Assembly (NCBI GenBank): GCA_027486675.1
Contig: JAIXOQ010000005.1
Location: 372,001-436,000, forward strand
Length of the DNA: 64,000 nucleotides
Source: Pseudomonadota bacterium
GTDB lineage: Bacteria; Bdellovibrionota; UBA1018; CAIMNF01
Direction: 5' to 3'
Part shown: piece after piece, positions 10,928 through 46,682 of the stretch
Layout: each line of letters begins with the position of its first letter
How positions within the stretch are numbered: the first letter of the stretch is position 1
Notes under the pieces: model-generated
The model's database searches: none
The model's input: only the letters and a program-made list of their open reading frames with translations
What the model was told of the DNA's origin: nothing
Program-made: the position numbers and the translations under genes

Positions 10928-10966
10928 TGTCCTGTCGTTGTTGATTCTGAAGGGACAATAAATCTC

Positions 10967-15533
<4,567 letters not shown>

Positions 15534-15539
15534 TGATTT

Positions 15540-27158: not shown

Positions 27159-27971
27159 CTAGCGAAGTAGCTCTTGGTTCACGGAGACTTTTGATTTAGC
27201 GCGGAGGTCAGAGAGGTGCTTAGCAACGAGGTTTTCCCGCTTTTCTTCCAAAATCAGGCGTTTGATGCGAGTTCTATCCGTCTCTTTCCAGTCCCGCTTT
27301 CCAGTCAACCGGATCAGATGTAAGCCAAAGGCGGTGCGGACAATACCTGACACTTCTAAGGGACGGCCAAGCTTGAGAGCAGCCTGATAGTAGGTGGGAT
27401 CTAAACGATCTTTAGTCCGAAAATCCAAGTCTCCACCCATGGGTCCACTTGGGTCTTCGCTATAGCGCTGGGCAGCTTCCGCGAAAGAAATTTTATCAGA
27501 TTTGATCTCTTTGGCGATCTCACTCATCCGAGCTTCGACTTTCTTAAGCTCTTCAGGGGAGGGTTCTGCAGAAAGCCCTAAAAAAACATGACTTGTTCTA
27601 ATTTCTGGATTCTTTTCATACCAAGCTTTTGCATCTGAATCTGTCACGCCCAAACGCTCAAAGTCAGGTCCAAGCTTTCTTTCGATGTAGGCATAAAACA
27701 GTACGGAATTGAGGCGATCCTGCACGGCCTGATCTTGATCAAGCTTCATCTTCTTTGCTTCTTGAACCGCAACTTCCTTACGGATCATGTCCTCTAAAAC
27801 TTCCTTTTTAGAAATTCCTGCAGGCCCCACTGCGCGAAGCTGGTCTGCATAGCGTGCTGAAAACTGTTCAGAGGTAATGACATGCTCATTAATCCGAGCC
27901 GCCTCAATTGCGGCATGTGCGTTTGTCGTCAGTACTGCAACTGCAACAGTTAGGATCAGAGTCTTCGTCAT
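27159..27971 (-). CDS. Parvulin-type peptidyl-prolyl isomerase, exported
   Basis: The 270-aa protein has a Sec signal peptide ending NAHA at about residue 20, a SurA/PrsA-like helical N-terminal part, and a complete parvulin domain from about 125 to 225 (RTSHVFLG, FAEAAQRYSEDPSGPMGGDLDF, VRTAFGLHLIRLTGK). The role is proline isomerisation and chaperoning in the periplasm. Its ATG overlaps the mfd stop, so translation is coupled to mfd. It is followed by the surA-like gene, giving a chaperone pair. Confidence 0.9.
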   Translation of the reverse strand: MTKTLILTVAVAVLTTNAHAAIEAARINEHVITSEQFSARYADQLRAVGPAGISKKEVLEDMIRKEVAVQEAKKMKLDQDQAVQDRLNSVLFYAYIERKLGPDFERLGVTDSDAKAWYEKNPEIRTSHVFLGLSAEPSPEELKKVEARMSEIAKEIKSDKISFAEAAQRYSEDPSGPMGGDLDFRTKDRLDPTYYQAALKLGRPLEVSGIVRTAFGLHLIRLTGKRDWKETDRTRIKRLILEEKRENLVAKHLSDLRAKSKVSVNQELLR

Positions 27972-30900
27972 TTCTTAAAGTTATCACTAGCTTCCATTGA
28001 TTCAAATGCTTTGGGAGCAATCGTCGCGAGGATCTTCCCAAGGAGCGTCACTAGTTCGTCTGTGTTCAGATAAACCAAAGCAATCCTGAGCTTAGAGTCG
28101 GGCAAGAGTGTCAGACGATTGTCGCGCACACCTTTCGGGCCCGATAATTTTTGCATCACAAGATTGGGGTCGATTTGGTTGGGCTCTCGAGCTGTGAGCA
28201 CGGCGTGATCTTTGCCGATGGAACAAGAGTCGATACCCACCTTTTTCAGCAGAAACTTAAGCTTTGTGACCGCAAATAGATTTTTCACTGGGGCTGGAAC
28301 ATCCCCGTATCGATCGTGAAATTCGCTGGATAAATCATCGATTGCTTCTAAACTCCGGGCCGCAGATAGTCTGCGGTATTGCAAGAGTCTTGATTGTGGG
28401 AGGGGAATCACGCTTTCAGGGATTTCAGCAGCAAAAGGGACTTTGATCTCAGGTTCCCACCTGAGGTCCTCCATACGAACAGGATTTCCTCTTAAAGCAG
28501 AGACCTCTTCATGCAGAAGCTCCATGAAGAGATCTAAACCCACCGCAGCAATGTGCCCAGACTGCTCTGCACCTAAAAGTGAGCCACCTCCGCGCATCTC
28601 TAAGTCATAAGTCGCGATTTGAAAACCGCTCCCCAACTCAACAAACCTCTGAAGAACATCAAGGCGTTCCCGGGCTTCATCCGTGAGACGGCCTTCGTCA
28701 CCCACTAAAAGATAGGCATAAGCTTTTTTATTTCCACGTCCGACTCGGCCGCGAATCTGATACAGCTGTGAAAGTCCAAAAAGATCAGCTCTTTGAACAA
28801 TGATCGTACCGGCGCGCGGCACGTCAATTCCGCTCTCGATGATCGTTGTGCAAAGCAAGACCTGCGCATTTCCTTGGTAAAAGTCGAGCATTCTCGACTC
28901 GATCTCACCTTCTGGGAGCTGCCCGTGCGCGACCAGGATCCGAGCGCCGGGTAGCAGACGCCTCAGTTCTGTGGCTCGGGCCTCGATCGTTTGAACCTTG
29001 TTATAGAGGTAAAACACCTGCCCGCCGCGATCTAATTCGGTCTGCATGGCATTACGAACTAATTCATCGGAGTAACCCGATACATAGGTCGCGATCGCTT
29101 GGCGATTGGCGGGCGGACTCTTCATGATCGTGATGTCCTTGAGGCCAGACATCGCCATATGAAGCGTTCTTGGGATCGGTGTGGCAGTTAGAGTTAATGT
29201 GTGAGTGCTGCTTTGTATGCTTCTGATCTTTTCTTTGTGCTCAACACCAAAACGATGTTCTTCATCCACAATCAATAGGCCAAGCTTTGCCCACTCGACG
29301 TCCTTAGAGAGCAAACGGTGAGTACCGATCAGTATATCGACCTTCCCTTCTGCTGACTCTTTCAGGATCTTTTTCTGTTCTGTCTTCGTTTTGAATCGGC
29401 TCAGACTTTCAATGCGAATAGGGAAGTGCCTAAATCGATGGCGAAAGCTTTGCTCATGCTGAAAGGCGAGTAGTGTTGTTGGAACAAGCACTCCGACTTG
29501 ACTGCCGTTTTGAACTGCCTGAAACGCAGCACGCATCGCAACTTCGGTCTTTCCAAAACCCACGTCACCGCACACCAAACGATCCATGAGTTTCCCAGAT
29601 TCAAGGTCGTCCAATGTTTCGTCGATCGCGCGCTCTTGGCCTTCGGTCTCTGTGTACTCAAAGTCCGTCGCAAATTTCGCAAATTCTTCTCCACGACCCA
29701 AGAACTGTGTTCCTTGAACCAGGGATCGTTTGGCGTAAAGCTCGAGTAGGTTAATCGCAATCTTTCGGACCTCCGCTCGTGCTTTCTGCTTTGAGCGTTC
29801 GAAAAGATTCGATCCTAATCGATCGATGGGAGCGGAGCTTCCAGCCCCGATGTACTTGTGAATAGAGTTCAGCCGGTAGACCGGGAGATAGAGCTTGTTT
29901 TGCTCCGCATACTCGATCAGAAGGTATTCGCCTTGCAAGCCGCCTGAAGACAGATGTTTTAGCCCGAGGTACCGCCCGACGCCATGAGTCGTATGTACGA
30001 CCGTATCGCCCACTTCAATCTGCGCAAGATCCCGAAGTTCAATGAGGTCTTCCACAGCGAAGTTCGACGCCTTCGAAGGAGTCTTCTTAGTGCTTTCGCG
30101 TGCACGCCGCCCAAGTAGGTCAGACTCGCGGATGTAAAGCTCTTTTCGTGTCTCTCGTCGGACGGATTCACTGAGATCACCGTTTAGGATTTTGACCTTG
30201 TTGCCAAAAAGCCCTGAAATACGCTCGCGGTGCGTGAAAGAGCGACACCCGATCGAGATGAGGTAGCCGTCCTCAATTGCATCTTTTATGAACTTTTCCC
30301 CCACTTCCACAGCAGGAATTTCATCGTCAACAGCAACTTGAGGGTCGGGCGCATCCGATGCGCCAGACATCTGCACTAAGGACTTCGCGATTGCGGATTC
30401 GGCCCTTGAGTCTTCCGAAAAAAGATCGCCCGGAAGAGGGGAGATTTTTGGCTCATGGCTGTAGCGTTCAAAATCTTTGAAAAGTTCATCTCGAAGATGT
30501 TTGACCGAATTCACCGCAAGTTGCGGCTGAGTCGCGCCGATGATCGCCTCTGCCGGCAAGTGATCCAGAAGCAGTCCGGGTTTGCCGTGGAGTAGGGGAA
30601 TCCATGTCGTAAAATTTTCTGGCGCAAAACCGCTTCTCAGATTCTCAAAAATCGGATCCCGGGTGCGCCTCGGTACGCTTTGGCTGTCTGCATAATCTTT
30701 GATCCGCTCAAGGGCGGGTTCAGAGTTATGAAATGGAAAGATCACCTCCGATGCGGGGGGCACCAAGATGACTGAGGCCTTGCCCAAGGATTTTAGCGTG
30801 CGTTGGTTCCGTGGATCAAAAACGCGGATCGATTCGATCTCAATATCAAAAAAGTCCACGCGAATGGGCTCCGCGCCCGGTGGATAGATGTCCACCAAGT

Positions 30901-31375
30901 CTCCTCGGACTGAATATTGCCCAGGCTCTTCTACTGACTCTGCCTTTCGATATCCAATCTCTCGAAGCTGCGCTAAAAAGGGCTCCCGCTCGAATAATTC
31001 ATTCACCTGAAGCTTCAGGCTCTTTTCATCAAATAGTGCAGCAGGGATGGTGGGCTGAGCAAAACTTCCGGGATCGCAGATCACAGTGATCCTTTCCTGG
31101 GTGTCACGCTTAAGATGAGCAAGGACTGTGAGGCGATCCATCATTCGCGCAAGCGAGGGGCTCACTGGGGCGTAAGGGCTGTGATCCCATCCACCCCACT
31201 CCAAACAAAGTTCAGAACTGAGGCTTCGCAAGTTTGAAGCGAGTGTCTGCCTGCGTTCTGAAGACGACTCAATCCACACGCGGATGCGTGCGGGGTGCTC
31301 TAGAATTTTGATCGCAAGCGAGGTGAGGGAACACCAAGGCCACGATACGGTTGGTTCTTTGGGGAAATGAGTCAT
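27968..31375 (-). CDS. mfd: Transcription-repair coupling factor
   Basis: Mfd is a DNA translocase that removes stalled RNA polymerase and recruits UvrA. The 1135-aa protein has a UvrB-like N-terminal module (QYSVRGDLVDIYPPG), an RNA-polymerase-interacting domain (GDTVVHTTHGVGRYLG), helicase motifs (GDVGFGKTEVAMRAAF, VDEEHRFGVEHKE, TATPIPRTL, IIESGIDVPRAGTIIV, QIRGRVGRG) and a C-terminal TRCF domain. It is the first gene of the minus-strand run that ends with uvrA. Its start is 38 bases from the divergent complex-I-like operon. Confidence 0.96.
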   Translation of the reverse strand: MTHFPKEPTVSWPWCSLTSLAIKILEHPARIRVWIESSSERRQTLASNLRSLSSELCLEWGGWDHSPYAPVSPSLARMMDRLTVLAHLKRDTQERITVICDPGSFAQPTIPAALFDEKSLKLQVNELFEREPFLAQLREIGYRKAESVEEPGQYSVRGDLVDIYPPGAEPIRVDFFDIEIESIRVFDPRNQRTLKSLGKASVILVPPASEVIFPFHNSEPALERIKDYADSQSVPRRTRDPIFENLRSGFAPENFTTWIPLLHGKPGLLLDHLPAEAIIGATQPQLAVNSVKHLRDELFKDFERYSHEPKISPLPGDLFSEDSRAESAIAKSLVQMSGASDAPDPQVAVDDEIPAVEVGEKFIKDAIEDGYLISIGCRSFTHRERISGLFGNKVKILNGDLSESVRRETRKELYIRESDLLGRRARESTKKTPSKASNFAVEDLIELRDLAQIEVGDTVVHTTHGVGRYLGLKHLSSGGLQGEYLLIEYAEQNKLYLPVYRLNSIHKYIGAGSSAPIDRLGSNLFERSKQKARAEVRKIAINLLELYAKRSLVQGTQFLGRGEEFAKFATDFEYTETEGQERAIDETLDDLESGKLMDRLVCGDVGFGKTEVAMRAAFQAVQNGSQVGVLVPTTLLAFQHEQSFRHRFRHFPIRIESLSRFKTKTEQKKILKESAEGKVDILIGTHRLLSKDVEWAKLGLLIVDEEHRFGVEHKEKIRSIQSSTHTLTLTATPIPRTLHMAMSGLKDITIMKSPPANRQAIATYVSGYSDELVRNAMQTELDRGGQVFYLYNKVQTIEARATELRRLLPGARILVAHGQLPEGEIESRMLDFYQGNAQVLLCTTIIESGIDVPRAGTIIVQRADLFGLSQLYQIRGRVGRGNKKAYAYLLVGDEGRLTDEARERLDVLQRFVELGSGFQIATYDLEMRGGGSLLGAEQSGHIAAVGLDLFMELLHEEVSALRGNPVRMEDLRWEPEIKVPFAAEIPESVIPLPQSRLLQYRRLSAARSLEAIDDLSSEFHDRYGDVPAPVKNLFAVTKLKFLLKKVGIDSCSIGKDHAVLTAREPNQIDPNLVMQKLSGPKGVRDNRLTLLPDSKLRIALVYLNTDELVTLLGKILATIAPKAFESMEASDNFKK

Positions 31376-31413: not shown

Positions 31414-31740
31414 ATGACACCAATTTCCAGTACTTACATCAGCTTTTTCATCTGGCTAGGTGTGATTTGTGGGGTGCTTTTTCTTTGGTCCCGCGCTACG
31501 CAGGCTCGGACCCAAGACTTAAGTACCACAAAACGTCCGCTCCAGCGGCTTCGTTTACGCCAAGTGAAAGAGGTTTTTGGGGGCTGGGTCGTTGCGGCTG
31601 GGGTTGTTTCGGTGTTGCCCTGGCTCGTGCTCGCGCAGCCTGATGTCGAAGAAATGTTAATCGCCTTGGTGGTTATCGTATTTCTTCTCTTTTTTACACT
31701 CGACTCATACCTTTGGAAAAGACGCCGTGAATCTGACTGA
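31414..31740 (+). CDS. Divergent NuoA-like membrane protein, first gene of a complex-I-like operon
   Basis: The 108-aa protein has three predicted membrane helices (about 8-26, 49-67, 72-93), the topology and size of NuoA. The segment VSVLPWLVLAQ followed by EEMLIALVVIVFLL and LWKRR lines up with TVFFYPWAVVYRQ, LEMIAFVAVLLVG and LRKG of the intact NuoA at 38451. The FECG motif of NuoA is absent. ATG 31414 is chosen because the longer frame overlaps the mfd start. It overlaps the next gene by 14 bases. The NuoA assignment rests mainly on gene order. Confidence 0.5.
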   Translation: MTPISSTYISFFIWLGVICGVLFLWSRATQARTQDLSTTKRPLQRLRLRQVKEVFGGWVVAAGVVSVLPWLVLAQPDVEEMLIALVVIVFLLFFTLDSYLWKRRRESD

Positions 31741-32137
31741 TCTTAAAACCCCCGCGCTGCATTATTTTTCCTCCCCTGCAATGTGTTGTGCGAACGAACT
31801 CGTGCAGGCCGAGTCCTCACGTTATGACTTAGAACGCCTGGGTTGTTATCGCACGACAACTATAGAGGATGCCGACGTGCTGGTGATTCTCGGGGCGCTG
31901 ACGGAATCCATCGCGCAAGAGCTCGTCGTGCTCTACCACAAAATGCCAAAACCACAGCGAGTGATCGTAGCTGGGACTTGCGGTTGTGGCGGAGGTCTCT
32001 TTCCATTTTTGGGCCAACAAACTTTTGTTGATCCGAAATCACTTTTCCCAATCGATCTTTACGTTCCTGGATGCCCACCACGACCAGAAGCGATGATCCG
32101 GGCCTTCGTCGATCTTAAGTCGAAGGTGTCGTCATGA
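31727..32137 (+). CDS. NuoB-like iron-sulfur subunit of the divergent complex-I-like operon
   Basis: This 136-aa relative of NuoB and group 4 hydrogenase small subunits keeps all four cysteines expected for cluster N2: the tandem MCCANEL, GTCGCGGG, and VPGCPPRPEAM (compare SCCGIELM, GACASSGG and VPGCPPAPEG in the intact NuoB at 38817). It is about 30 residues shorter and otherwise divergent. The start is GTG 31727, inside the previous gene, and the stop overlaps the next ATG. Inference: it still holds a 4Fe-4S cluster, next to a NuoD-like partner without a normal quinone site. Confidence 0.85.
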   Translation: MNLTDLKTPALHYFSSPAMCCANELVQAESSRYDLERLGCYRTTTIEDADVLVILGALTESIAQELVVLYHKMPKPQRVIVAGTCGCGGGLFPFLGQQTFVDPKSLFPIDLYVPGCPPRPEAMIRAFVDLKSKVSS

Positions 32138-33126
32138 GTTGGGTCACAGTCTTTGGCGTGTGTGATCCAGCACCCGGCGGACCGCTTCTCATTGAAGCAG
32201 ATGTCCGAGGCGGCACCGTTCACGAAGCCAGGGTGCAATTTGGATTCGCACAAAGAAAAATCTTGGAGCGAATCTCCTCTCGTCGCTGGAGTGATCATCT
32301 TTTTTTGATGGCACACCTCAGACCCGATGCAGCGCCGATCGGGGAACTTCTTTTTTCTGAGGCGGTCGAATCGGCCTCAGTAGTCGACGCCCCACTGAGG
32401 GCGCGTGGCATTCGTCAGCTCATTGCGCGATTTTCCGAGTTGTCTTTACTGCTTGCAAATTTGGCGAGCTGTTTTGAGCAAGTCGGGTTTACTCCACCCA
32501 AATTTCTCTTAATACGCATGCGTGAAGAGATTTTAGATTTTTTTGAACTCATGACCGGGTCCCGATATGCGTTTGGTTTTATCCGACCCGGCGGCGTGCG
32601 TTGGGACGTGAGTGAAGGATTTTTGTCACGTGTTGAAACTTGGGCGGAAGATTTTGAGTCCCACATGGAACTGATTCGCGATTTTGTGACCCTTTTGCAT
32701 CGCACTACGCCTGGAGTTGCAGAGTTAGGACGACTTTCGTTCTGGAAAGACAGTTGCACGACAACGGAAACCTCTGTCCTTGGCCGAATTATTCACATGG
32801 TTGAGTGTTTAGAAAAAGGTGTGGCCATTCAGAAGAGAGAAATAGGCGGCTTGGCGCCCGGGGGAGTGCTGATTCACTTAGATCACCCTGAAGGAATGGA
32901 CGCGGATAGGTCTCTTACACCCTTTTCGACTGAATACTTGGGTCTGCGTGGTTCTTGGAAGCTCTCTGGTCAAGGTTCATCTGAAGCACTCGCGGGTTTA
33001 GTGCTGCGGACCCCAAGCCATGGTGCTGCGCAATGGGTTGCAGAGGCCTGCCGCGGAGTGCGAGTGGATCAAATGGGGCTTATTTTAGCCAGCCTCGACT
33101 TTTCGGCACTGGAGATCGACCAATGA
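32134..33126 (+). CDS. NuoD-like large subunit lacking quinone-site residues
   Basis: The 330-aa protein aligns with NuoD (49-kDa subunit) in three places: FGFAQR with FGYTHR, MTGSRYAFGFIRPGGVRWDV with the GARLTTSYTRIGGLMYDAP region, and the C-terminal RTPSHGAAQ...LILASLDFSALEID with RGPSFWHYQ...VGALGSINVIAGELD of the intact copy at 39881. The quinone-pocket histidines of GPTHPAMHG become Asp11 and Gly15 (GVCDPAPGG), the FGYTHR histidine becomes Gln, and the RLNY tyrosine becomes Ala. The NiFe cysteine motifs of hydrogenases are also absent. About 100 residues of the family are missing. ATGA overlaps occur on both sides. Confidence 0.75.
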   Translation: MSWVTVFGVCDPAPGGPLLIEADVRGGTVHEARVQFGFAQRKILERISSRRWSDHLFLMAHLRPDAAPIGELLFSEAVESASVVDAPLRARGIRQLIARFSELSLLLANLASCFEQVGFTPPKFLLIRMREEILDFFELMTGSRYAFGFIRPGGVRWDVSEGFLSRVETWAEDFESHMELIRDFVTLLHRTTPGVAELGRLSFWKDSCTTTETSVLGRIIHMVECLEKGVAIQKREIGGLAPGGVLIHLDHPEGMDADRSLTPFSTEYLGLRGSWKLSGQGSSEALAGLVLRTPSHGAAQWVAEACRGVRVDQMGLILASLDFSALEIDQ

Positions 33127-33941
33127 TCCTTGACCCGGTGCTGAGCGCTTTCATTCCTCCTCTGTTTTATTTCCTCTTAGTTGCTCCATTAACTGAAGTG
33201 TGGCTTTCCCGGTTGGATGCACGCGTAGGGGTCGGAATGGTCGGCTACTTCATGCGCGTACGTGATGAACTCCTGAGGCACCGATCGAAAGGGATGTCCC
33301 GACTGGTTTCTAGCCGGGAACTTCTTGGAAGTGCGCTGTTGCTCAGCAGTTCTGCCGCGCTTTTTCTTTTGTCGACAGGTCCGCTGAGTTTAGGAATGGT
33401 TCCATTGATCTTTTTGGTGGCTGTCTTTTTGTGTCATGAAAATGAAGGCGTGCTGATCGCTGTCGCAGCAACACTGCCCGTATTCTTCTCATTCATAGGA
33501 CTCGCTGTTCTTTCTGGTTCTTGGTCCATTGAGGGCGTAGTGGCGTGGCAGCACTCGCTTCATTTGGGTGCCACCGCGCTGGAAAGCCCATTTTCGAGTG
33601 TGATGTTTCTTGCCACCCTTGTTTCTGGTCTCGCACTTTTTGAACAGAAGCCCTTTCAAGTGAGAAACGTAGGATTTTTTAAAGGTCTCCTTCGTGGCTA
33701 CGGGCTCTTTGTCTGGAGCATGCTGCTTGCGCGCACATTTTTAGGATGCGAGTTTCTTTTGAGTGAACTTTTTGTAGCGACCCTCTTGTGTTGGGTCACT
33801 ACTGTTTGTGGTGCGTTCCTCCCTCGAAATGCTTTGCCTGGGGAGCTTCGAATCCTTCTGCATTTCCTCTTCCCTGTTGCGTTGCTTGGTTTTGTCGGTG
33901 CACTGGGGTTTAAGCTCGCAGTCTTGCAGTGGGGGTTGTGA
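33123..33941 (+). CDS. NuoH-like membrane subunit, divergent
   Basis: Starting at the ATG that overlaps the previous stop, it encodes 272 aa with about eight membrane helices. RVGVGMVGYFMRVRDELLRHRSKG matches in position the RLGPNRIGPFGLLQ...KFLFKED loop of NuoH, and LFEQKPFQV stands where NuoH has FAETNRLPFDLPEG. The acidic EGESELVAGY motif of the quinone tunnel is not recognisable. The intact NuoH at 44310 is 365 aa, so this copy is about 90 residues shorter. Position after the D-like and before the I-like gene supports the call. Confidence 0.65.
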   Translation: MILDPVLSAFIPPLFYFLLVAPLTEVWLSRLDARVGVGMVGYFMRVRDELLRHRSKGMSRLVSSRELLGSALLLSSSAALFLLSTGPLSLGMVPLIFLVAVFLCHENEGVLIAVAATLPVFFSFIGLAVLSGSWSIEGVVAWQHSLHLGATALESPFSSVMFLATLVSGLALFEQKPFQVRNVGFFKGLLRGYGLFVWSMLLARTFLGCEFLLSELFVATLLCWVTTVCGAFLPRNALPGELRILLHFLFPVALLGFVGALGFKLAVLQWGL

Positions 33942-34336
33942 TGAAGACCATTTTTGATTTCTTCTTTAATCGGGACTCTTTGAGGAAAGTGGAGACTGAA
34001 CTTTATCCTGATCCAGTCTCGTCCCGAGGAGAGCAAGATCTTCCGGCTCGAACTCGCGGAGAAATAAAAAACGACCTCACTCTATGTACCGGTTGTGGTG
34101 ATTGTGTCACTCATTGTCCCACCTCTTGTATCGAACTTGTAAATGGGCCAGAGAAAGACGATCGTCCGAACGTTGAGGTATTCAACATTGATTTCTCTAA
34201 TTGCATATTTTGTGGTGAATGCGTTTCGGTTTGTGAGCCACAGTCACTCACGCAAAAGAAGCGATTTCTTCTTCCTGTAGAGAAGCCCGCTGACTTAAAG
34301 ATCCGTTTTGGGAGGCGTGATGACGCTGACGATTGA
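33941..34336 (+). CDS. NuoI-like 2x[4Fe-4S] ferredoxin subunit
   Basis: ATG 33941 overlaps the previous stop (TGATG) and gives 131 aa. Two complete 4Fe-4S motifs are present, LCTGCGDCVTHCP and NCIFCGECVSVCE (second motif ends in Glu instead of Pro), in the spacing of NuoI/HycF proteins. An in-frame GTG at 33929 is possible but deeper in the upstream gene. Inference: it can carry electrons to the NuoB-like subunit, but its electron donor is not encoded in the operon, because no E, F or G homologue is present. Confidence 0.85.
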   Translation: MKTIFDFFFNRDSLRKVETELYPDPVSSRGEQDLPARTRGEIKNDLTLCTGCGDCVTHCPTSCIELVNGPEKDDRPNVEVFNIDFSNCIFCGECVSVCEPQSLTQKKRFLLPVEKPADLKIRFGRRDDADD

Positions 34337-34769
34337 GCTGATGGGGGCGTTGTTGATATTGGTGGGCAGTCTGCTGCCAGTGGGAGAACGATTGCGCGCC
34401 CGTGCATTGGCGGAAGCGTCGCTGTTTGCTGGCTTTGTTGCCATTGGCACTTCGGTTGCGAGTGAGTCTTTGCCCACTTTCGTGATCTGCGTTGGCGCTT
34501 TAGGTTTTGGAGTGATCTTTGTATCTGAGACTCTCTCCCGAGTTACTTTGGTGAGCGTTGGCCCCAGGTTCACATTCAAGAGTTTTTTTCTGCGTGCTGG
34601 GCTTTTGATGTTGGCTGCAATTTTGTTTTGGGGCGCACGCTTCTTTCGGGAAGATGAAACCGCTTCGGTTCTTCCGCCGACAGCGTTTGAAGCAGTGGGT
34701 GCGGCATTCATTTGTGCATTTACAGTCTTCACCACTCGATTCTTAAGAGACCGCAGGAGGTGGAGATGA
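34320..34769 (+). CDS. NuoJ-like membrane protein, divergent
   Basis: ATG 34320 has a GGAGG ribosome-binding site about five bases upstream and overlaps the ferredoxin gene by 17 bases. The 149-aa product has about five membrane helices, the NuoJ topology and size. NuoJ sequence motifs are not obvious, so identification relies on topology and on its place between the I-like and K-like genes. Confidence 0.5.
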   Translation: MTLTIELMGALLILVGSLLPVGERLRARALAEASLFAGFVAIGTSVASESLPTFVICVGALGFGVIFVSETLSRVTLVSVGPRFTFKSFFLRAGLLMLAAILFWGARFFREDETASVLPPTAFEAVGAAFICAFTVFTTRFLRDRRRWR

Positions 34770-35005
34770 CTTTAGTAAACGCTTTGCTCGCGCTGAGTTT
34801 GATTATTGGCGTCTTGCGGCTTTCCTACGCGACCGATGCGCGCTCGCAACTTCATGGACTTGTCGTTACGGCTGTAACTCTCGCCGCTGGATCTTTGGTG
34901 CTCCTTCAGTCTGTTTGGATTTCTTTGGCGGTTTTAGTGGTTGGTTTTGCCTTGGTCGGAGTCTTTATTGAATCTTCCATCGAAGAGGAGGGTTCATCGT
35001 CGTGA
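34766..35005 (+). CDS. NuoK-like small membrane protein, divergent
   Basis: ATG 34766 follows CAGGAGGTGG and overlaps the previous stop. The 79-aa product has two to three membrane helices and an acidic tail (ESSIEEEG). The two membrane glutamates of NuoK (in CIELMLNA and AAAESAVG of the intact copy at 46375) have no counterparts. Size and order suggest NuoK; motif evidence is lacking. Confidence 0.45.
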   Translation: MTLVNALLALSLIIGVLRLSYATDARSQLHGLVVTAVTLAAGSLVLLQSVWISLAVLVVGFALVGVFIESSIEEEGSSS

Positions 35006-36246
35006 CTCAAGGTTGGTTCATTTGGGGTGCTTCAACTCTTCTTGCAGTGCTTGGGTATTTGCTTGAACCGCTTGGAACGGGCGCAATTCAATTCAGTGCG
35101 CCGAGATTTCTAATAGCTGCCCTCGTTTGGTTTGTCTGTTCAGAGAAGTCGCGCCGTCTTGAGCTCGTTCCGTATTTATTTTTGGGTGCCTGTTTTCAGG
35201 GCTGGTTAGCATTCAGTGCGCTCACTGTGGCATTTACTGTATTGAGTTGGGCCGACTACAAAGATGATCGTCGAGGAATTGCTTCAGCATTTATTTTAAT
35301 CGGACTCAGTAGTCTGGGCGTTTTTTCTACAGTGACTGCTTTCTCCGTTTTTGCGCCTCTAGCGGTTGCTCCTATGCTAGTTGGTTTGTCATTGAGCCCT
35401 AAGGGCCCGCTGCTTCTTGGAATTCTGATGATTCTATTACCCAAAGAATTTTCAGATCTTGGAGCAGAGAAGATCGGATTCTTCTCAGGGTTTGTTGGGC
35501 TCCTTTTTGTATTTGGTCTGACTGCGTGTATGGCGGTCCGGGATCTCGCTTGGGTGCTCGCTTTAGGTTTGCTTGCAGCCGGTAAACTTTGGTTAGGTTG
35601 GTCCAATGTGAACGCTGCGACTTTTGCATTGCTCGTATGTCGTGTGGCTTTGCCTCAAGTTCAGTGGCAGAGGATGATCGCACTCTTGTTTGTTTGCGGC
35701 GCGCTGCCGTCTTCAATGCTGTTGATCTCGTTTCAAAACGTTGCAGCAGATGGAACGCTTGTCGTAGTGATTGCGGGGGTTTATGCGCTTTTTTCCTGCC
35801 TTGCCCTGCAGGCAGCTCGTTCAGAGGAGCAGATCAAAGCGGGCGGAACTTTTCTTTTGATTACTGGTCTTTTACCCGTTTTGCCGATGGTGCATCGAGG
35901 CGGCTTGGGTCAGATCACTGCAATGGAATCTCTTTGGGATATGTCATCCGGCTGGATGCTCGGGGTGGTCGGCACTTCGTTCGTAATGATGGTGGTCGGG
36001 GTTGGTATAGGCAACCGTGAGCAAGGGCTGCCCATTCAGGGCATTTGGTTCGTCACCCTCTTTGACCGCCTCCGCCTTGCTATCGGGACGCGCGACCAGC
36101 GACTTGTAGTCGCGGTAGAGAACCGGCTTAAGACGTATAAATCGACACAGAATATGAAGCTACCAATACAGAACAGCACTGAGGTTTGGTTCTGGATTGG
36201 TGTAGCTCTTCTTGCCGCGGGCTTTTCTTTCTGGAGGGCCGCATGA
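35002..36246 (+). CDS. Large polytopic membrane protein in the NuoL/M/N position (first of three)
   Basis: The 414-aa protein starts at GTG 35002 (GTGA overlap with the previous stop) and has about 11-12 predicted membrane helices. The antiporter hallmarks of NuoL/M/N (WLPDAHxxAPTPVSA-type loop, lysine in SxxxKLGxYG) are not recognisable; a weak AAGKLWLGW segment may correspond to the VKLPLVPFHSW region. A hydrophilic stretch near the C-terminus (about 350-395) separates the last helix, as an amphipathic arm might. The call is by order and topology only. Confidence 0.45.
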   Translation: MTQGWFIWGASTLLAVLGYLLEPLGTGAIQFSAPRFLIAALVWFVCSEKSRRLELVPYLFLGACFQGWLAFSALTVAFTVLSWADYKDDRRGIASAFILIGLSSLGVFSTVTAFSVFAPLAVAPMLVGLSLSPKGPLLLGILMILLPKEFSDLGAEKIGFFSGFVGLLFVFGLTACMAVRDLAWVLALGLLAAGKLWLGWSNVNAATFALLVCRVALPQVQWQRMIALLFVCGALPSSMLLISFQNVAADGTLVVVIAGVYALFSCLALQAARSEEQIKAGGTFLLITGLLPVLPMVHRGGLGQITAMESLWDMSSGWMLGVVGTSFVMMVVGVGIGNREQGLPIQGIWFVTLFDRLRLAIGTRDQRLVVAVENRLKTYKSTQNMKLPIQNSTEVWFWIGVALLAAGFSFWRAA

Positions 36247-37247
36247 GTACATCTGGTGTGATTCTTGGTGCGAGCGGCGTTCTTCTCGGTGCGTTCATGT
36301 CCTTCCGGTTTTTTAGATCCAACGCGGTTGCAGCGACATTGAGTTTAGTAGGGGCCTGCATTCTAGTTTTAGGTCTGTTGGCGGGGCCCCTTGAGGCGAT
36401 TTTGACCGCAACCGTTCTTTCGGTCTTTTGGGCGATAGCGTTCTTAGTCTCAGGAGCATCGGCGAGCGATGCGAGGTTACATGTGATCGTTGGGATCTTT
36501 CGCCTTGGCTGTCTTTTGATTTCATTTTTCTTTGCGCGTTACGGGACAGAATTGCCGCTTGCCTCAGCGTGGGTTGGCATTTTTGCGCTTCTTTCATTTC
36601 CAATCTATACCTTTGAGTTTTCCTCAAATCTTCCCACCTGGCGCGAACACTCAGGCATGGTCGCTTTGAGTCGGGGTATTCAAATGGTGTTGGGCCTGGA
36701 GTTTTTATATCAGGCCAATCAGCCCTTACAAGGAGCCCAAGGGTTCGCCATTGCTCTTTTGGTCATTGTTCTCTTTAGATTGCTGTTAGTGGTGCGACCA
36801 CTGGAGTATCTCTTGGCTTCGACCAACGTTCTTGCGCTCTTTGCAGCAACCCTGTGCACCTTAGGAGCCATTCAAGAACATGATCTGCGCGCATTGCAAT
36901 GGACGGTCTTAGTCGCCCCTATGACTCTTTGTTTCCTGGCTGCGTTGCGCCCAGGAGCCTTAATTGTCACGAGCGCTCTCATTTGGCTCCCCATTCCAAA
37001 AAGCTGGGCATCTTTAGCGCTCACGCACGCGCTCAGCTCTAAATCGGATGTGCCACTCTTCGCATTGGCAATCGGGACTTATATTTGTCTAGGTCTCGCA
37101 CTGAGTAGAGTCCTTAAGGATTTTGAAGGCGAACGAGCTGGGCTCTCTCATGGTTGGTCTGACGGATGGCAAACGCGAGCGGCCCTTTTGATTCTCATTG
37201 TTCTCACTTTTGTAGCTCCGATCTTAATTGAGCGGGGTGCAGTATGA
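36243..37247 (+). CDS. Large polytopic membrane protein in the NuoL/M/N position (second of three)
   Basis: ATG 36243 overlaps the preceding stop and gives 334 aa with about 10 membrane helices. Charged residues within helices are scarce, and no antiporter-family motif is visible. Overlap with the next gene (ATGA) shows it is part of the same coupled operon. Function unknown; by order it corresponds to one of the NuoL/M/N proton-pumping subunits. Confidence 0.45.
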   Translation: MSTSGVILGASGVLLGAFMSFRFFRSNAVAATLSLVGACILVLGLLAGPLEAILTATVLSVFWAIAFLVSGASASDARLHVIVGIFRLGCLLISFFFARYGTELPLASAWVGIFALLSFPIYTFEFSSNLPTWREHSGMVALSRGIQMVLGLEFLYQANQPLQGAQGFAIALLVIVLFRLLLVVRPLEYLLASTNVLALFAATLCTLGAIQEHDLRALQWTVLVAPMTLCFLAALRPGALIVTSALIWLPIPKSWASLALTHALSSKSDVPLFALAIGTYICLGLALSRVLKDFEGERAGLSHGWSDGWQTRAALLILIVLTFVAPILIERGAV

Positions 37248-38413
37248 CGCCGATTGCCAAGGAAGTGATTCCTGCAGTCCTTTTGGGGTTCATTTTTCTC
37301 CATGCCGGCCTACGTGGTTTGGTCCAGTGGCGGCCATTGCACTTCGTTGGGGTCCTTGCCGCAGCGCAGTCGGCGGTTACCGCAGCGCTGATTGGGTTCT
37401 CCGAAGGACTTTCGATGCTCTGGGCGATTCCCTTCCTCAGTTTTGGTTTGCTGCCTCGTTTAGTGAACGGAGCATCCCAGGCAGAGGACGAGCGCTCGGA
37501 TGAATGGATGTTTTTTCAGTGGCTTCTGTTTGTTTTGGCCTGTTGTTTTGTATTTCCAAGCCAATGGGTGCTTTGGCTTGGGTTTATCGTCTGGTCGCTT
37601 GCCTCGATTGCGATGTCTCCCATTTCTGAGCGAAAAATCGAATTTACGCGAAGCCTTCTCCTCTTAGTCGCGCTTGCGGTTGCAGTGTCGACCCCGCTCG
37701 ACAGCTGGCAGCTTCGTTTTTCTGTGGTTTTAGGGCTGCTGATGCCTTTGCCTCTGTTACGGTCCATGGAAATTCGCATGCAGTCGCAGGCATGGGGTAG
37801 TGCCCAGTTCCTTTTAGCCGTGCGCATCCTCTTGTCCTTTGTTTTCGTAAAAAACTGGATCACTCCAGCCGTCACCCCTCCCTTCACCCAAGTTTTGGGA
37901 CTCTTTTTTGTCCTCGGATTTTTGGCTATGGCCACTTCCGCATGGGTTGCCAATGACCTACGTATTTGGTCGCTTCGAGTCTTGAGTGCATTTGGCTTCT
38001 TTGGCGCCTTTGCGTCCCTTTTTGGAAAGGATGCCGAAAATCTATTCATTCTCATCTTTTCGACGCTCACCTTTAGTCTCCTCATTGCGCCAAGCTTGAG
38101 CCGCCTTGGGCGCTTCATCGCAGTTTTTTCAGTGGGATTTGGTGCTTCCATGAGTGCTCTTTGGATCACGCTCTCGATGGCGCCCCAGTTTGGGGCTCTG
38201 GCCCCGGTATTTATCTTGCTTGCAGGGGCAGCTTTGACCTTAGTTCTGGCCTCGGTCTGGCGGCAGCTCCCCCAAGCAAACGAGTCAGTCGGGTTTGACC
38301 TCAATTCGTTTCATCAAAAGAGATCGAGGCGTCTGACTGTGCTTTTAGTGCTGGTCTGGCTTGCGGTCCTACCCATGCTTGAGCTTCTGCTGCCGATTTT
38401 CCGTGTCTCTTAG
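37244..38413 (+). CDS. Large polytopic membrane protein in the NuoL/M/N position (third of three)
   Basis: The 389-aa protein has about 11-12 predicted membrane helices and a short basic segment (HQKRSRRL) before the last one. No NuoN motif is recognised. It is the last gene of the divergent operon; 37 bases separate its stop from the ATG of the intact nuoA, so transcription may continue into the real nuo operon. Confidence 0.45.
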   Translation: MTPIAKEVIPAVLLGFIFLHAGLRGLVQWRPLHFVGVLAAAQSAVTAALIGFSEGLSMLWAIPFLSFGLLPRLVNGASQAEDERSDEWMFFQWLLFVLACCFVFPSQWVLWLGFIVWSLASIAMSPISERKIEFTRSLLLLVALAVAVSTPLDSWQLRFSVVLGLLMPLPLLRSMEIRMQSQAWGSAQFLLAVRILLSFVFVKNWITPAVTPPFTQVLGLFFVLGFLAMATSAWVANDLRIWSLRVLSAFGFFGAFASLFGKDAENLFILIFSTLTFSLLIAPSLSRLGRFIAVFSVGFGASMSALWITLSMAPQFGALAPVFILLAGAALTLVLASVWRQLPQANESVGFDLNSFHQKRSRRLTVLLVLVWLAVLPMLELLLPIFRVS

Positions 38414-38450: not shown

Positions 38451-38813
38451 ATGGAATATCTGCCAGTACTCATCTTGATGTCCGCTGGTCTATTGATCGG
38501 GGGCACGGTTATTTTCCTCTCTTGGTATCTTGGGCCCAAGCTCCCCAACACCACGAAGGACTCTGCATTTGAATGTGGTGCGCCCGCTCTAGACGACGCG
38601 AAGTCTCGACGGATGTCAGTGCGCTTTTATCTGATCGCCATATTGTTTCTGTTGTTTGATGTTGAAACTGTATTTTTTTATCCTTGGGCCGTTGTTTACC
38701 GCCAGTACTTGACCCAAGGGCAATTCATTTTTCTCGAGATGATCGCCTTCGTGGCCGTTCTTCTTGTGGGGTACGTCTATATTTTGCGCAAGGGCGCATT
38801 GGAGTGGGAGTAA
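38451..38813 (+). CDS. nuoA: NADH-quinone oxidoreductase subunit A
   Basis: The 120-aa three-helix membrane subunit is at the quinone-channel end of complex I. The conserved FECG motif, the RFYLIAILFLLFDVETVFFYPWA helix region and the C-terminal LEMIAFVAVLLVGYVY...KGALEW are all present. ATG 38451 gives the usual N-terminus MEYLP; in-frame TTG 38433 and GTG 38436 are alternatives. It is the first gene of the canonical 14-gene operon. Confidence 0.94.
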   Translation: MEYLPVLILMSAGLLIGGTVIFLSWYLGPKLPNTTKDSAFECGAPALDDAKSRRMSVRFYLIAILFLLFDVETVFFYPWAVVYRQYLTQGQFIFLEMIAFVAVLLVGYVYILRKGALEWE

Positions 38814-38816
38814 TCG

Positions 38817-39323
38817 ATGTCTAAAGACGGATCCGCAGATTTTTTCACAACAAAGCTGGATGCTTTCGTGAGTTTTGCTCGGAAGAATTCCTTGTTTCCT
38901 CTCCCTTTCGGCACCAGCTGTTGTGGGATCGAGCTGATGTCTACATTGGCGTCGGGCTATGACATGGCACGATTTGGCGCAGAGGTTGTTCGATTCTCGC
39001 CACGCCAAAGTGACTTGCTGATCTGTGCAGGGATAGTCACACAGAAGATGGCTCCTGTTCTTCGAAATATTTATGATCAAATGGCAGATCCAAAATGGGT
39101 GATGAGTTTTGGTGCCTGCGCATCTTCAGGCGGGATTTTTAACGTCTACAGCGTGACTCAAGGAATCGACACCGTTATCCCAGTGGACGTTTATGTTCCT
39201 GGATGTCCGCCCGCACCCGAAGGCGTACTCAATGCGTTGCTCGTCCTGCAGGACCGCATTCAAAGGGGGGATACATTCGCCCAGCGCCGTGAAAAGGCAT
39301 CTCGCCAGGGGTTGGTGGTGTAA
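38817..39323 (+). CDS. nuoB: NADH-quinone oxidoreductase subunit B
   Basis: This 168-aa peripheral-arm subunit carries cluster N2, which reduces quinone. The ligands are in GTSCCGIELM, FGACASSGG and VPGCPPAPEG. The start is three bases after the nuoA stop, and nuoC follows with no gap. It is clearly more conventional than the paralogue at 31727. Confidence 0.96.
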   Translation: MSKDGSADFFTTKLDAFVSFARKNSLFPLPFGTSCCGIELMSTLASGYDMARFGAEVVRFSPRQSDLLICAGIVTQKMAPVLRNIYDQMADPKWVMSFGACASSGGIFNVYSVTQGIDTVIPVDVYVPGCPPAPEGVLNALLVLQDRIQRGDTFAQRREKASRQGLVV

Positions 39324-39884
39324 ATGGATATTCGCACGCGCATCCCGACAAATTATGGTTCGTGGGTCGACCTATTCGGCGCTCTTTGGTCAGACCAAGT
39401 CACCAAGATTCAAGCACGGTTTGGCGAGGCAACTCTTTCGGTACAGATGCCGGAAACAGATCCAACAGATGTACCTACTTTTGTTTTTTCCAGTCACGCC
39501 AATCTTGAGGTGCTTCAGTTTTTTAAGGTGGACCTTGGTTACGATTTTCTTGTGGATTACACAGCGACCGACGAAGAACTAGAGCCTCGCTTTCTTTTGG
39601 TCTTTCAGCTGATGTCGCGCGAAACCAAAGCGCGGGTGCGGGTAAAGTTTCAGGTTTCAGAGGGAACGTCAGTAGAAAGTATTGTTTCTCTTTGGCCCGG
39701 TGCTAATTGGGCAGAGCGGGAAATCTTCGACATGTTCGGAGTCCAGTTCTTAAATCACCCGGATCTTAGGCGCATTTTGTTAGATATCCGGTGGGAGGGG
39801 CACCCCCTTCGGAAAGATTACCCACTCCGTGGATACCAGTCTTTTATAACCCCTGAAGAAATAGATCCGGAGCTACTCAAGTGA
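39324..39884 (+). CDS. nuoC: NADH-quinone oxidoreductase subunit C
   Basis: The 186-aa 30-kDa subunit forms the connecting module with NuoD. WPGANWAEREIFDMFGVQFLNHPDLRRIL and GHPLRKDYPL are the family signature. It is encoded as a separate gene, not fused to nuoD, and its stop overlaps the nuoD GTG. No counterpart exists in the upstream divergent operon. Confidence 0.96.
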   Translation: MDIRTRIPTNYGSWVDLFGALWSDQVTKIQARFGEATLSVQMPETDPTDVPTFVFSSHANLEVLQFFKVDLGYDFLVDYTATDEELEPRFLLVFQLMSRETKARVRVKFQVSEGTSVESIVSLWPGANWAEREIFDMFGVQFLNHPDLRRILLDIRWEGHPLRKDYPLRGYQSFITPEEIDPELLK

Positions 39885-41170
39885 GCGACGAACAAAACTC
39901 AGTAAAAGAATCATCGAGTAGAGACATTCCAATCGACGTTTCGCGCTGGGGATTCCCCGGTTCGATGAATGTTTCGTTCAAGGACGATAAAGATGATCTC
40001 TTTGATGATTCTAAAGTGATTATCAACATCGGACCCACGCACCCGGCGATGCATGGTGCTTTTCGCTGCATGGCGAAGCTCAACGGTGAGGTGATCGAAA
40101 GCTCCTACTCTGAATTTGGCTATACCCACCGAGCAAAAGAGAAACTGGGAGAAAATCGGACGTACCACCAATTCATCGTCTACACGGACCGTCTCAATTA
40201 TTGTTCCGCGCTGATCAATAACGTGGCTTATGCGCTCTCTGTGGAACGGTTAATGGGAATTGAAGTGCCAACACGTGCAACATGGATTCGCATGATGGCC
40301 GCAGAAATTGCGCGTGTGACCGATCACTTGATCTGTGTCGGCATCAATGCCGTGGACTTAGGTGCGTTTTCTTTCTTTCTTTACGGATACCAACAACGTG
40401 AACGTGCCTACACATTAATTGAAAAGCTGTGTGGCGCGAGGTTAACCACCTCTTACACTCGCATCGGCGGCTTAATGTACGACGCTCCGGAGGGCTGGGA
40501 GCAAGAAGTCAAAACCTGGGCATTGAAAACTCGCGAAGTCATCGATGAGATGGACTCATTGCTGACCAATAATCGCATTTGGCATAAACGCACAAAAGAA
40601 GTGGCCATTTTTAATAAAGAGCAGTGCATGAAATACAGCTTCACCGGCCCTAACGCGCGCGCGGCTGGGATTGACCTGGATCTGCGCCGTGATCAGCCTG
40701 TCTTGTTCTACGACCGAGTGGATTTTGATGTACCGACAGCTCAGATTGGGGATGTTTTTGACCGATACGCGGTGCGCATCGAAGAAATGCGGCAGTCACT
40801 TTCGATTTTGATTCAGTGTGCTGAGAAAATAAAGAAAGGTCCGATTTGGGCTGACGATAAACGCACCCGTATTCCGGATAAAGAAGTGGTGCACAACACG
40901 ATGGAAGGAATGATCCATCATTTCAAATTCTTCATGACTGGCTTTGACGTTCCAGAGGGCGAGGCTTACACGCCATTTGAAGCCGCGAACGGTGAGTTAG
41001 GATTTTATATTGTGAGCAGGGGCGGACCTAAAGCCCATCGGATGCGCATTCGTGGCCCATCTTTTTGGCATTACCAGGGCTTAGATCCAATGATTAAGGG
41101 CGCTTATGTCGGGGACTTAGTCGGTGCATTAGGGTCGATCAACGTGATTGCCGGGGAGCTGGATCGGTAA
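39881..41170 (+). CDS. nuoD: NADH-quinone oxidoreductase subunit D
   Basis: The 429-aa 49-kDa subunit forms the quinone pocket with NuoB. It retains GPTHPAMHG with His54 and His58, FGYTHRAKEKL, the RLNY tyrosine, and the C-terminal INVIAGELDR. It starts with GTG inside the nuoC stop. A 40-residue N-terminal extension precedes the conserved core. Confidence 0.96.
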   Translation: MSDEQNSVKESSSRDIPIDVSRWGFPGSMNVSFKDDKDDLFDDSKVIINIGPTHPAMHGAFRCMAKLNGEVIESSYSEFGYTHRAKEKLGENRTYHQFIVYTDRLNYCSALINNVAYALSVERLMGIEVPTRATWIRMMAAEIARVTDHLICVGINAVDLGAFSFFLYGYQQRERAYTLIEKLCGARLTTSYTRIGGLMYDAPEGWEQEVKTWALKTREVIDEMDSLLTNNRIWHKRTKEVAIFNKEQCMKYSFTGPNARAAGIDLDLRRDQPVLFYDRVDFDVPTAQIGDVFDRYAVRIEEMRQSLSILIQCAEKIKKGPIWADDKRTRIPDKEVVHNTMEGMIHHFKFFMTGFDVPEGEAYTPFEAANGELGFYIVSRGGPKAHRMRIRGPSFWHYQGLDPMIKGAYVGDLVGALGSINVIAGELDR

Positions 41171-41646
41171 TGGAAAAAGTACTTTCACAAAAATTCTACG
41201 ACAAGATGTCCAAGCTGGAGCAGCGCTACCCTATTCGTAACGCGCTGATCCTTCCTGCGCTTCATGCAGCACAAGAAGAGTTTGGATGGTTGCCCAAAGA
41301 AGCTATGGATGAAGTTGCTGTTTTCATCGGCGTGCACCCTGCGCAGATCCGTGAAGTCGCAAGCTTTTACACGATGTACAACCTGAGCCCGGTTGGCGAA
41401 AAGCATCTGAAGATCTGCACTAATGTTTCGTGTATGTTGCGAGGTGCATACGACCTTGTAACTCATTGCGAAAAAAAGCTTCAGATCAAGACCGGGGAAA
41501 CCACAGTAGACGGAAAATTCACTCTTTCAGAAGAGGAGTGTTTAGGAGCCTGCGGTACAGCACCAGCGATGATGGTGAATGATGATTACCACGAAAATTT
41601 AAGCATTGAGCGCATCAATCAAATCTTAGAAGGGCGTGCACCATGA
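41170..41646 (+). CDS. nuoE: NADH-quinone oxidoreductase subunit E
   Basis: The 158-aa 24-kDa subunit binds a 2Fe-2S cluster (N1a) through CTNVSC and ECLGAC. The thioredoxin-like fold start (IRNALILPALHAAQEEFGWL) is typical. The start shares one base with the nuoD stop, and its stop overlaps nuoF. Confidence 0.95.
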   Translation: MEKVLSQKFYDKMSKLEQRYPIRNALILPALHAAQEEFGWLPKEAMDEVAVFIGVHPAQIREVASFYTMYNLSPVGEKHLKICTNVSCMLRGAYDLVTHCEKKLQIKTGETTVDGKFTLSEEECLGACGTAPAMMVNDDYHENLSIERINQILEGRAP

Positions 41647-42911
41647 ATACACTTTTTGTGCAGCACTTTGGCAACGATGAAAACCGAAAGCTGAGTTATT
41701 ACACCGCTCAGATGATGGGATATCAGGCTGCGCGGCGCGCCATTCTAGAGATGAAGCCAGAGCAGATCATCGAGGATGTAAAGAAAAGTAGCATCCGTGG
41801 TCGTGGGGGAGCTGGCTTTCCTACGGGCATGAAGTGGGGCTTTCTCCCAAAGGAAAGTGCGAAGCCAAAGTACTTGGTTTGCAACGCCGATGAATCAGAG
41901 CCGGGTACATTTAAAGACCGAGATATCATCCGCTATACGCCGCATTTGTTGATTGAAGGGATGATCATCGGTTCTTATGCGATTGGCTGCACTCATGCAT
42001 ATATTTACATTCGGGGTGAATACACGCGCGAAGCAAAGATCCTTCAAGAAGCGATTGACGAAGCCTATAAAAATGGTTTCTTAGGTAAGGGGATCTTCAA
42101 CTCTTCTTTCAATCTTGATGTCACCCTGCACCGAGGTGCTGGTGCCTATATTTGCGGTGAAGAAACCGCACTCTTAAACTCTTTGGAAGGGAAGCGCGGC
42201 GAGCCTCGCGTTAAGCCCCCGTTTCCAGCTCTTGTGGGTGCGTTTAGTTGTCCGACTGCGGTGAACAATGTGGAAACGATTGCAACGGTTCCCCATATTT
42301 TAAATCGTGGGGCGGAATGGTACGCAAAGTTAGGGCGAATAGAGAAATCGGGCGGCACTCGCTTAATGAGTGTCTCTGGCCACGTGAAGAATCCCGGTGT
42401 CTACGAAGTGGAGGCTGGGAGCATTACTCTGCGTCAGCTGATCGAAGATCACGCCGGCGGCTGCTGGAAAGACAAAAAAATTAAAGCAGTGATTCCTGGA
42501 GGATCCTCGGCTCCGGTTCTGACTGCGGATGAAATCGATGTGGTATTAGACATTGAGCCCTTTCAGAAAATTGGAACCATGATGGGTTCTGGCGCTGTGA
42601 TGGTGTGTGATGAAGACACCGACATGGTCCAGCTCATCTGGCGCATTACGAAATTCTACGCGCACGAGTCCTGCGGACAGTGCACCCCTTGTCGTGAAGG
42701 CTGTCATTGGATGGAGGCCATTCTCCACCGCATACTGCACGGAGCAGGGGCAGAGAAAGACCTAGATATGTTGCTGGATATAGCCAACAACATTGGCGGA
42801 AAAACACTCTGTGCTTTAGGGGATGCAGCAGCAGGTCCCGTGATTAGTTTTGTAAAGAAATTCCGCACTGAGTTTGAGTCGTATATCCGAGGTCAAAAGA
42901 AATATGCCTAA
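41643..42911 (+). CDS. nuoF: NADH-quinone oxidoreductase subunit F
   Basis: The 422-aa NADH-binding 51-kDa subunit carries FMN and 4Fe-4S cluster N3. RGRGGAGFPTGMKW is the NADH/FMN glycine-rich loop, GAGAYICGEETALLNSLEG the FMN site, and ESCGQCTPCREGC plus a later Cys (GGKTLCALG) the cluster ligands. It overlaps nuoE at the start and nuoG at the end. Confidence 0.96.
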   Translation: MNTLFVQHFGNDENRKLSYYTAQMMGYQAARRAILEMKPEQIIEDVKKSSIRGRGGAGFPTGMKWGFLPKESAKPKYLVCNADESEPGTFKDRDIIRYTPHLLIEGMIIGSYAIGCTHAYIYIRGEYTREAKILQEAIDEAYKNGFLGKGIFNSSFNLDVTLHRGAGAYICGEETALLNSLEGKRGEPRVKPPFPALVGAFSCPTAVNNVETIATVPHILNRGAEWYAKLGRIEKSGGTRLMSVSGHVKNPGVYEVEAGSITLRQLIEDHAGGCWKDKKIKAVIPGGSSAPVLTADEIDVVLDIEPFQKIGTMMGSGAVMVCDEDTDMVQLIWRITKFYAHESCGQCTPCREGCHWMEAILHRILHGAGAEKDLDMLLDIANNIGGKTLCALGDAAAGPVISFVKKFRTEFESYIRGQKKYA

Positions 42912-45407: not shown

Positions 45408-45409
45408 CG

Positions 45410-45853
45410 ATGTTGATCAAACGCAAAGCACCATGGTGGAATGTTTTCTATCTGATCGAAGTCATTTCTGGACTTTTGATCACGATGAAGCACTTCTTGT
45501 TTAAGAAGACGGCAACACTTCAGTTTCCAGAAGAGCGCCGCGAGTACTCAGACAGGTACCGAGGTCTGCACTACATCAAGACGGTAAATAATGTAGAGAA
45601 CTGCACAGCTTGCATGCTGTGCCCGACCGTGTGTCCCGCAGAGTGCATTCACATTGTTGCAGAGGAACGCGCTGATAAAGAAAAGTACCCTGCGCGTTTT
45701 GAAATTGACCTCCTCCGTTGCTGCTTTTGTGGGATGTGTGAGGAAGCTTGCCCTAAGGACGCCATCAAGCTCTCTAATATTTATGAGATGGCCCAGGTTG
45801 AACGTATCGTCTTAGAAAAAGATGTTTTGCTGGATCAAAGAGGTGGCAAGTGA
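45410..45853 (+). CDS. nuoI: NADH-quinone oxidoreductase subunit I
   Basis: The 147-aa 23-kDa ferredoxin-like subunit holds clusters N6a and N6b through ENCTACMLCPTVCP and CCFCGMCEEACP. ATG 45410 is chosen over the longer in-frame start at 45332, which lies inside nuoH; GGAG at about 45395 may serve as ribosome-binding site. The stop overlaps the nuoJ GTG. Confidence 0.95.
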   Translation: MLIKRKAPWWNVFYLIEVISGLLITMKHFLFKKTATLQFPEERREYSDRYRGLHYIKTVNNVENCTACMLCPTVCPAECIHIVAEERADKEKYPARFEIDLLRCCFCGMCEEACPKDAIKLSNIYEMAQVERIVLEKDVLLDQRGGK

Positions 45854-46680: not shown

Positions 46681-46682
46681 TG

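Follow-up and report, generated by a model that had tools for sequence, protein, structure and literature searches.

A reduced second complex I operon beside nuo in the Bdellovibrionota, apparently stripped of its pump

In a bacterium of the Bdellovibrionota, a ten-gene operon that adjoins the genes for complex I represents, on sequence comparison, the most strongly reduced version of a second complex I of ancient origin. A whole respiratory complex has apparently been stripped of its pump in this lineage and kept for another job. The operon is designated X here (its genes xA to xN, after their nuo counterparts), and "the window" denotes the whole 64,000-nucleotide stretch of DNA that was analysed.

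The ten-gene operon and its setting

The X operon comprises ten plus-strand open reading frames at window positions 31414-38413, in the nuo order A-B-D-H-I-J-K-L-M-N (Table 1). C, E, F and G are missing, and all internal junctions overlap. The coordinates thus bear out a preliminary description, made from the DNA sequence alone, of ten coupled frames in nuo order without C, E, F and G, and they also place the operon where it had been placed, immediately 5' of a complete nuo operon, with 37 bp between the two. Family models likewise recover the three proteins that had been called recognisable at the outset, those like NuoB, NuoD and NuoI: xB (3.9e-19) and xD (9e-15; Pfam match confined to residues 117-186) are recognised by Pfam/NCBIfam, and xI is recognised through several 4Fe-4S models. 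No Pfam/NCBIfam family match above cut-off was obtained for xA, xH, xJ, xK, xL, xM or xN. These seven had been named from topology, size and position; for H, M and N that assignment is now joined by a sequence link through orthologues of another family (f5, see below), while J has a weak link and A, K and L keep their names by position. Modelled from single sequences, xL and xN come out all-helical, at low confidence (pLDDT 44.7 and 52.1, pTM 0.25 and 0.28, respectively).

Table 1. Features of the X operon and its neighbours (window coordinates)
Feature	Position	Strand	Description
mfd	27968..31375	-	Divergent upstream neighbour; marks the conserved site
xA	31414..31740	+	NuoA-position membrane protein, 108 aa; position-based
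xB	31727..32137	+	NuoB-like, 136 aa; family-model match
xD	32134..33126	+	NuoD-like, 330 aa; family-model match; C-terminal half shortened
xH	33123..33941	+	NuoH-like, 272 aa; linked via f5 orthologues
xI	33941..34336	+	NuoI-like ferredoxin; alternative GTG start at 33929
xJ	34320..34769	+	NuoJ-position membrane protein, 149 aa; weak link to f5
xK	34766..35005	+	NuoK-position membrane protein, 79 aa; position-based
xL	35002..36246	+	NuoL-position membrane protein, 414 aa; position-based in the window's family f1
xM	36243..37247	+	NuoM-like membrane protein, 334 aa; linked via f5 orthologues
xN	37244..38413	+	NuoN-like membrane protein, 389 aa; linked via f5 orthologues
nuo operon	38451..51439	+	Canonical 14 genes A-N; begins 37 bp 3' of xN

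Elsewhere in the window, a 947-aa TPR protein (51449-54292) is encoded directly 3' of nuoN on the same strand, a 1567-aa protein (3323-8026) combines a terminal M48 peptidase domain with an ABC1 kinase-like match at the opposite end, and dnaN, gyrB and gyrA are clustered at 9812-18005, as near many replication origins. A scan of the genome contigs with the xB protein found no relative; a second scan, with the true NuoB, returned canonical operons and named Bdellovibrionota relatives.

The 55 genomes of the order were searched with xB, and the loci were then read. Nearly all hold two NuoB copies, the second of which is accounted for by a second operon located upstream of the true nuo operon, and the X copy is present in 51 of the 55. 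It was not seen in G029 and G038, both incomplete assemblies. In G007 and G009 the operon is cleanly absent, mfd directly abutting nuoA with a gap of about 120 and 200 bp; these are sister species (support 100), so that one loss suffices, and both retain an intact nuo operon. The X operon also occurs in two further families of the class (G056 and G057). At every upstream junction retrieved from the order, mfd stands to the left on the opposite strand, and at the other end the gap between xN and nuoA has a median of about 37 bp (30 readable loci). The same gene order at the same place recurs in 30 loci with at least 10 genes in order, which argues against chance, and 220 of 287 internal junctions overlap. 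No terminator was reported from a scan of the window's xN-nuoA gap. The X and nuo genes, as laid out, probably form one transcript. The best explanation of the distribution is that X has been present since the ancestor of the class and has been inherited vertically beside the true nuo operon. Horizontal gain as the main story was rejected: the X proteins form one clade, the site beside mfd is fixed, and GC content is usual (0.51, vs 0.49-0.51 in the neighbourhood).

Full-size relatives and selection

Ten genes, the number first described, are not the natural size of this unit. In sister families f3, f5 and f6 the X operon consists of 11 normal-sized genes, A-B-C-D-H-I-J-K-L-M-N, with no E, F or G, and in f2 the available parts, on two contigs, fit that layout, so the window displays a reduced form. 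These orthologues, together with the purifying selection described below, do sustain the companion proposal of a retained paralogous membrane complex that has no NADH module. The C gene is missing from one f5 genus, from f4 and from the window's family f1, the last two thus having ten genes. L measures 623-662 aa in most f5 members (544 in one), 529 in f4 and 277-458 in f1 (277-281 in most), and from full-size to reduced forms M passes from about 500 to 322-336 aa and D from about 377 to 330-342 aa.

Profile searches and a phylogeny of the B and D proteins had been suggested as checks in the preliminary description. The first gave canonical Nuo matches by way of the f5-type orthologues, whose A, H, J, K, L, M and N match canonical profiles at 97.7-100% probability in hhalign, mostly subunit-specifically (A to NuoA at 97.7%, J to NuoJ at 99.3%). 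The L, M and N profiles also match one another, as expected for homologues, and at one f5 locus seven proteins (C, H, J, K, L, M and N) pass Pfam cut-offs. Between f1 and f5 the comparison connects H (98.7%), M (93.6%) and N (95.4%), and J weakly (14.6%, E=0.0019); for the A, K and L of f1, profile comparison gave no sequence link to the f5 orthologues. In a concatenated NuoB+NuoD tree all 22 X rows form a clade, set off by a branch with support 100 from the neighbouring nuo operon, from the canonical 11-subunit complex and from a B-C-D-I cluster of other families. The window's X has a branch length of 1.99, vs 0.086 for the window's own nuo, which clusters with a Bacteriovoracaceae MAG (Bdellovibrionota); with X branches this long, the branching order within the X clade is uncertain. 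Gene content, profiles and phylogeny show that the X operon derives from a whole complex I, probably an 11-subunit one free of the NADH module. The B-C-D-I set itself is a four-gene complex I cluster in other families of the phylum (L174-L181, L186-L188), with no adjoining membrane genes; at the loci that were read (L175, L179) both the His and the Tyr of the quinone site are preserved.

Substitution rates, another of the suggested checks, were estimated in the species trio G003/G008/G011. For all ten X genes dN/dS lies at 0.02-0.055 in the nearest pair and is mostly below 0.06 in the other two (range 0.02-0.12, maximum 0.117, for J), and for the nuo genes of the trio it is about 0.007-0.06; the ratios are approximate, synonymous sites being near saturation, and non-synonymous change is clearly restrained. 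Such values, mostly 0.02-0.06, show strong purifying selection on all ten genes in close relatives of the window's species, and for the window's own genes we infer constraint from this sister genus. A pseudogene was rejected for the window's family on the basis of dN/dS and open frames. Family f6 shows higher ratios (0.16-0.54 between G051 and G053); G051 has an in-frame TAG between conserved Cys of its NuoI-like gene (L051, near 6300-6660), and in G053 the frame changes inside the NuoL-like gene (L147, near 5600). Both are draft assemblies, and the breaks may be assembly errors or real decay. The original proposal had been staked against frameshifted copies in relatives, and broken copies are found to a limited extent, one gene being interrupted in each of two of the four genomes of early-branching f6; no broken X genes were seen in the other loci examined. 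A relict on its way to loss would fit these breaks, the progressive shrinkage, the missing C, the long branches and the clean loss in the sister pair G007/G009. It is very hard to reconcile with the restraint measured in the closest trio (near-saturated synonymous sites notwithstanding), with the open frames of the other loci examined or with persistence across the whole class, and is considered highly improbable.

Iron-sulfur ligands and coupling residues

The four N2 Cys of NuoB are invariant in 20 of 20 aligned rows (C20, C21, C85 and C116 in the window's xB) and are also present in the proteins of G056 and G057. The eight NuoI Cys that serve two 4Fe-4S clusters were found by pattern in 32 of 34 X proteins, xI of the window included; of the two misses, one has them all in the correct frame and the other is the interrupted G051 gene. 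These alignments show the ligands of clusters N6a, N6b and N2 to be kept in the predicted X complex. Between loci L034 and L037, identity of the X proteins is 0.69 for B, 0.57 for D and 0.73 for I, and 0.36-0.38 for L, M and N; the true nuo proteins show the same direction (0.90-0.95 vs 0.58-0.62 for L, M and N), so that the difference between the arms is partly general. The X genes evolve faster than nuo throughout at this distance.

The quinone-site positions of NuoD, which we take to be bovine His59, Tyr108 and Asp160, were fitted by alignment to solved 49-kDa subunits. None of 36 X NuoD-like proteins has the His or the Asp, and 32 lack the Tyr (the four keepers include f6 and f8), its position being Pro in 28 of the 36; in the window's xD the three positions are G15, P64 and Q116. 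The membrane subunits tell a similar story. The FECG loop and FDVE acids of NuoA and both conserved Glu of NuoK are gone in all rows compared, xA and xK included, and the acidic quinone-chamber loop of NuoH is gone, in xH as well, with remnants in f6 only. The WE, GKSAQ and HxxTHAFFK motifs are missing from NuoL. No member has the TM5 Glu or TM7 Lys of NuoM, the TM8 Lys surviving in f6 only. In NuoN the TM7 Lys is gone throughout, the TM5 Glu is kept in f6 only, and most f5 members retain a KR pair further on. The pump Glu and Lys are lost from the window's xM and xN. The coupling role of these positions is established for the E. coli and Thermus enzymes. Since the losses are near-complete already in the full-size members, they preceded the shortening. 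A complex with such subunits appears unable to pump.

By descent, the X operon belongs with the 11-subunit complex I of Desulfitobacterium and of the cyanobacterial NDH-1 type. The versions in f3, f5 and f6 share its gene set and order, A-B-C-D-H-I-J-K-L-M-N without an NADH module, and its Fe-S ligands in NuoB (N2) and NuoI (N6a/N6b). X is not classed as a working example, because the quinone site and the proton path both fail: it has lost the quinone His and Asp, mostly also the Tyr, together with the NuoH, NuoA and NuoK acids and the L and M pump residues. Further unlike the canonical enzyme, X is linked to another nuo operon that is complete; the window's family has, in addition, lost C and shortened most of the membrane subunits. 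The neighbouring 14-subunit complex I has a common subunit ancestry with X and is adjacent and probably co-transcribed; X differs from it in lacking E, F, G and the coupling residues and in having its B and D in a separate clade.

For 11-subunit enzymes the donor has been proposed to be ferredoxin (PMC11238625), and the X gene set, which equals theirs in having no N-module, invites the reading of a ferredoxin-driven, energy-conserving complex of the same kind. The loss of quinone-site and pump residues argues against it, as does the distribution of donor systems: 2-oxoacid:ferredoxin oxidoreductase (POR-type) occurs in 14 of the order's 55 genomes and is lacking from 39 of the 51 X carriers, the window's genome included, and Rnf-type matches are few (RnfC-type above cut-off in 7). 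This reading is thus left with very little probability; the ferredoxin-linked role floated in the preliminary description is weakened by the same observations and retains the match in gene set. Ten genomes of the order have a third set, a separate canonical 11-subunit operon (e.g., L168-L171, in G045, G031, G051 and G050), and all ten carry POR, usually 4-5 kb away.

Within the complex I superfamily, X also resembles MBS and the Ehr (energy-converting hydrogenase-related) complexes, which are without the metal ligands of the hydrogenase active site. Those are relatives of group 4 hydrogenases and are believed to move ions across the membrane, whereas X appears unable to pump, has counterparts of NuoA, J, K and N, and belongs with NuoB/NuoD. 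A group 4 [NiFe] hydrogenase was rejected for X itself, xD having no CxxC pair and matching NuoD/FpoD in NCBIfam. Distant clusters of NuoB/NuoD-like and NuoL-like genes that resemble group 4 hydrogenase operons were seen at L172 and L173 (G044 and G051).

What the X complex may do

The reading we prefer, by a little better than an even chance, is that the X operon specifies a membrane-anchored Fe-S conduit that is uncoupled and is expressed together with complex I. It is favoured because the N6a-N6b-N2 chain is kept while quinone reduction in the normal pocket and proton coupling are lost. The X proteins would assemble into a membrane-anchored complex, produced together with complex I; electrons from a soluble donor would pass through NuoI to NuoB and on to an acceptor other than quinone in the usual pocket, with no pumping; and the shrunken L/M/N arm would be mainly an anchor, perhaps also a docking surface for complex I. 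Several observations count against the conduit. The candidate donor systems POR and Rnf are absent from most carriers, the window's genome among them; the pair G007/G009 indicates that certain settings allow life without X; Fe-S clusters can be retained for folding alone; assembly is putative, and xA, xK and xL of the window are assigned by position; and there are the elevated dN/dS and the two broken genes in f6.

The main rival of the conduit is a catalytically dead structural partner that assembles with or beside complex I and stabilises or regulates it, its Fe-S clusters kept for folding only. The conserved immediate linkage to nuo, the probable co-transcription and the loss of all known catalytic and coupling residues speak for such a partner, and there is a precedent: the "deranged" bc1 complex of Acetobacteraceae has lost conserved cofactor ligands and is believed to have been retained as a stabiliser of complex I (PMC10715153). 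As in X, a respiratory complex has been kept after catalytic loss, possibly in support of complex I. It is a different complex, however, and the dead bc1 complexes lost their ligands whereas X kept its own, which are its best-conserved feature even where half the protein is missing. Moreover, G007 and G009 lack X and yet have their nuo operon intact. On balance a dead partner seems rather unlikely, if still the strongest of the competitors.

Replacement of the quinone residues (notably by Pro at the Tyr position) with N2 kept could instead point to a redox enzyme in which N2 is the catalytic cluster and a new acceptor occupies the former quinone site, by analogy with the archaeal sulfane-sulfur reductase MBS. 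The published account of MBS (PMC7684303) offers a precedent for reduction catalysed by an Fe-S cluster within the complex I superfamily, but it also describes MBS as a respiratory complex, and X has lost its pump residues. The sequence survey gave no clue to a substrate or pathway, and no new strictly invariant catalytic residue stands out in the alignment of X NuoD. An enzyme of this kind is improbable.

The permanent linkage to nuo favours a role as partner or in a supercomplex with complex I, as far as gene arrangement can indicate, and the X complex may share E, F and G of the neighbouring operon. A more far-reaching version is put forward tentatively, with the chances leaning against it: that a complete second complex I has been kept over the whole history of the class as a dedicated Fe-S electron-transfer partner, on the same transcript as complex I, its electron wiring split from pumping and from the usual reduction of quinone. 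In the openly accessible literature that was searched, no description of such an operon was found, in keeping with the impression first recorded for this DNA.

How quinone chemistry drives proton pumping by complex I is still debated. The X operons constitute a natural series in which the coupling residues have been removed and the Fe-S wire and subunit set kept. Its surviving stages run from full-size 11-gene versions to the ten shortened genes of the window, and the series reveals which components of complex I can disappear together. The X complex, as an apparently non-pumping relative, is a means of asking what the membrane arm is for, and the pair G007/G009 provides a natural knock-out for comparison. 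The finding also adds to the idea that respiratory complexes can persist after their original activity has been lost.
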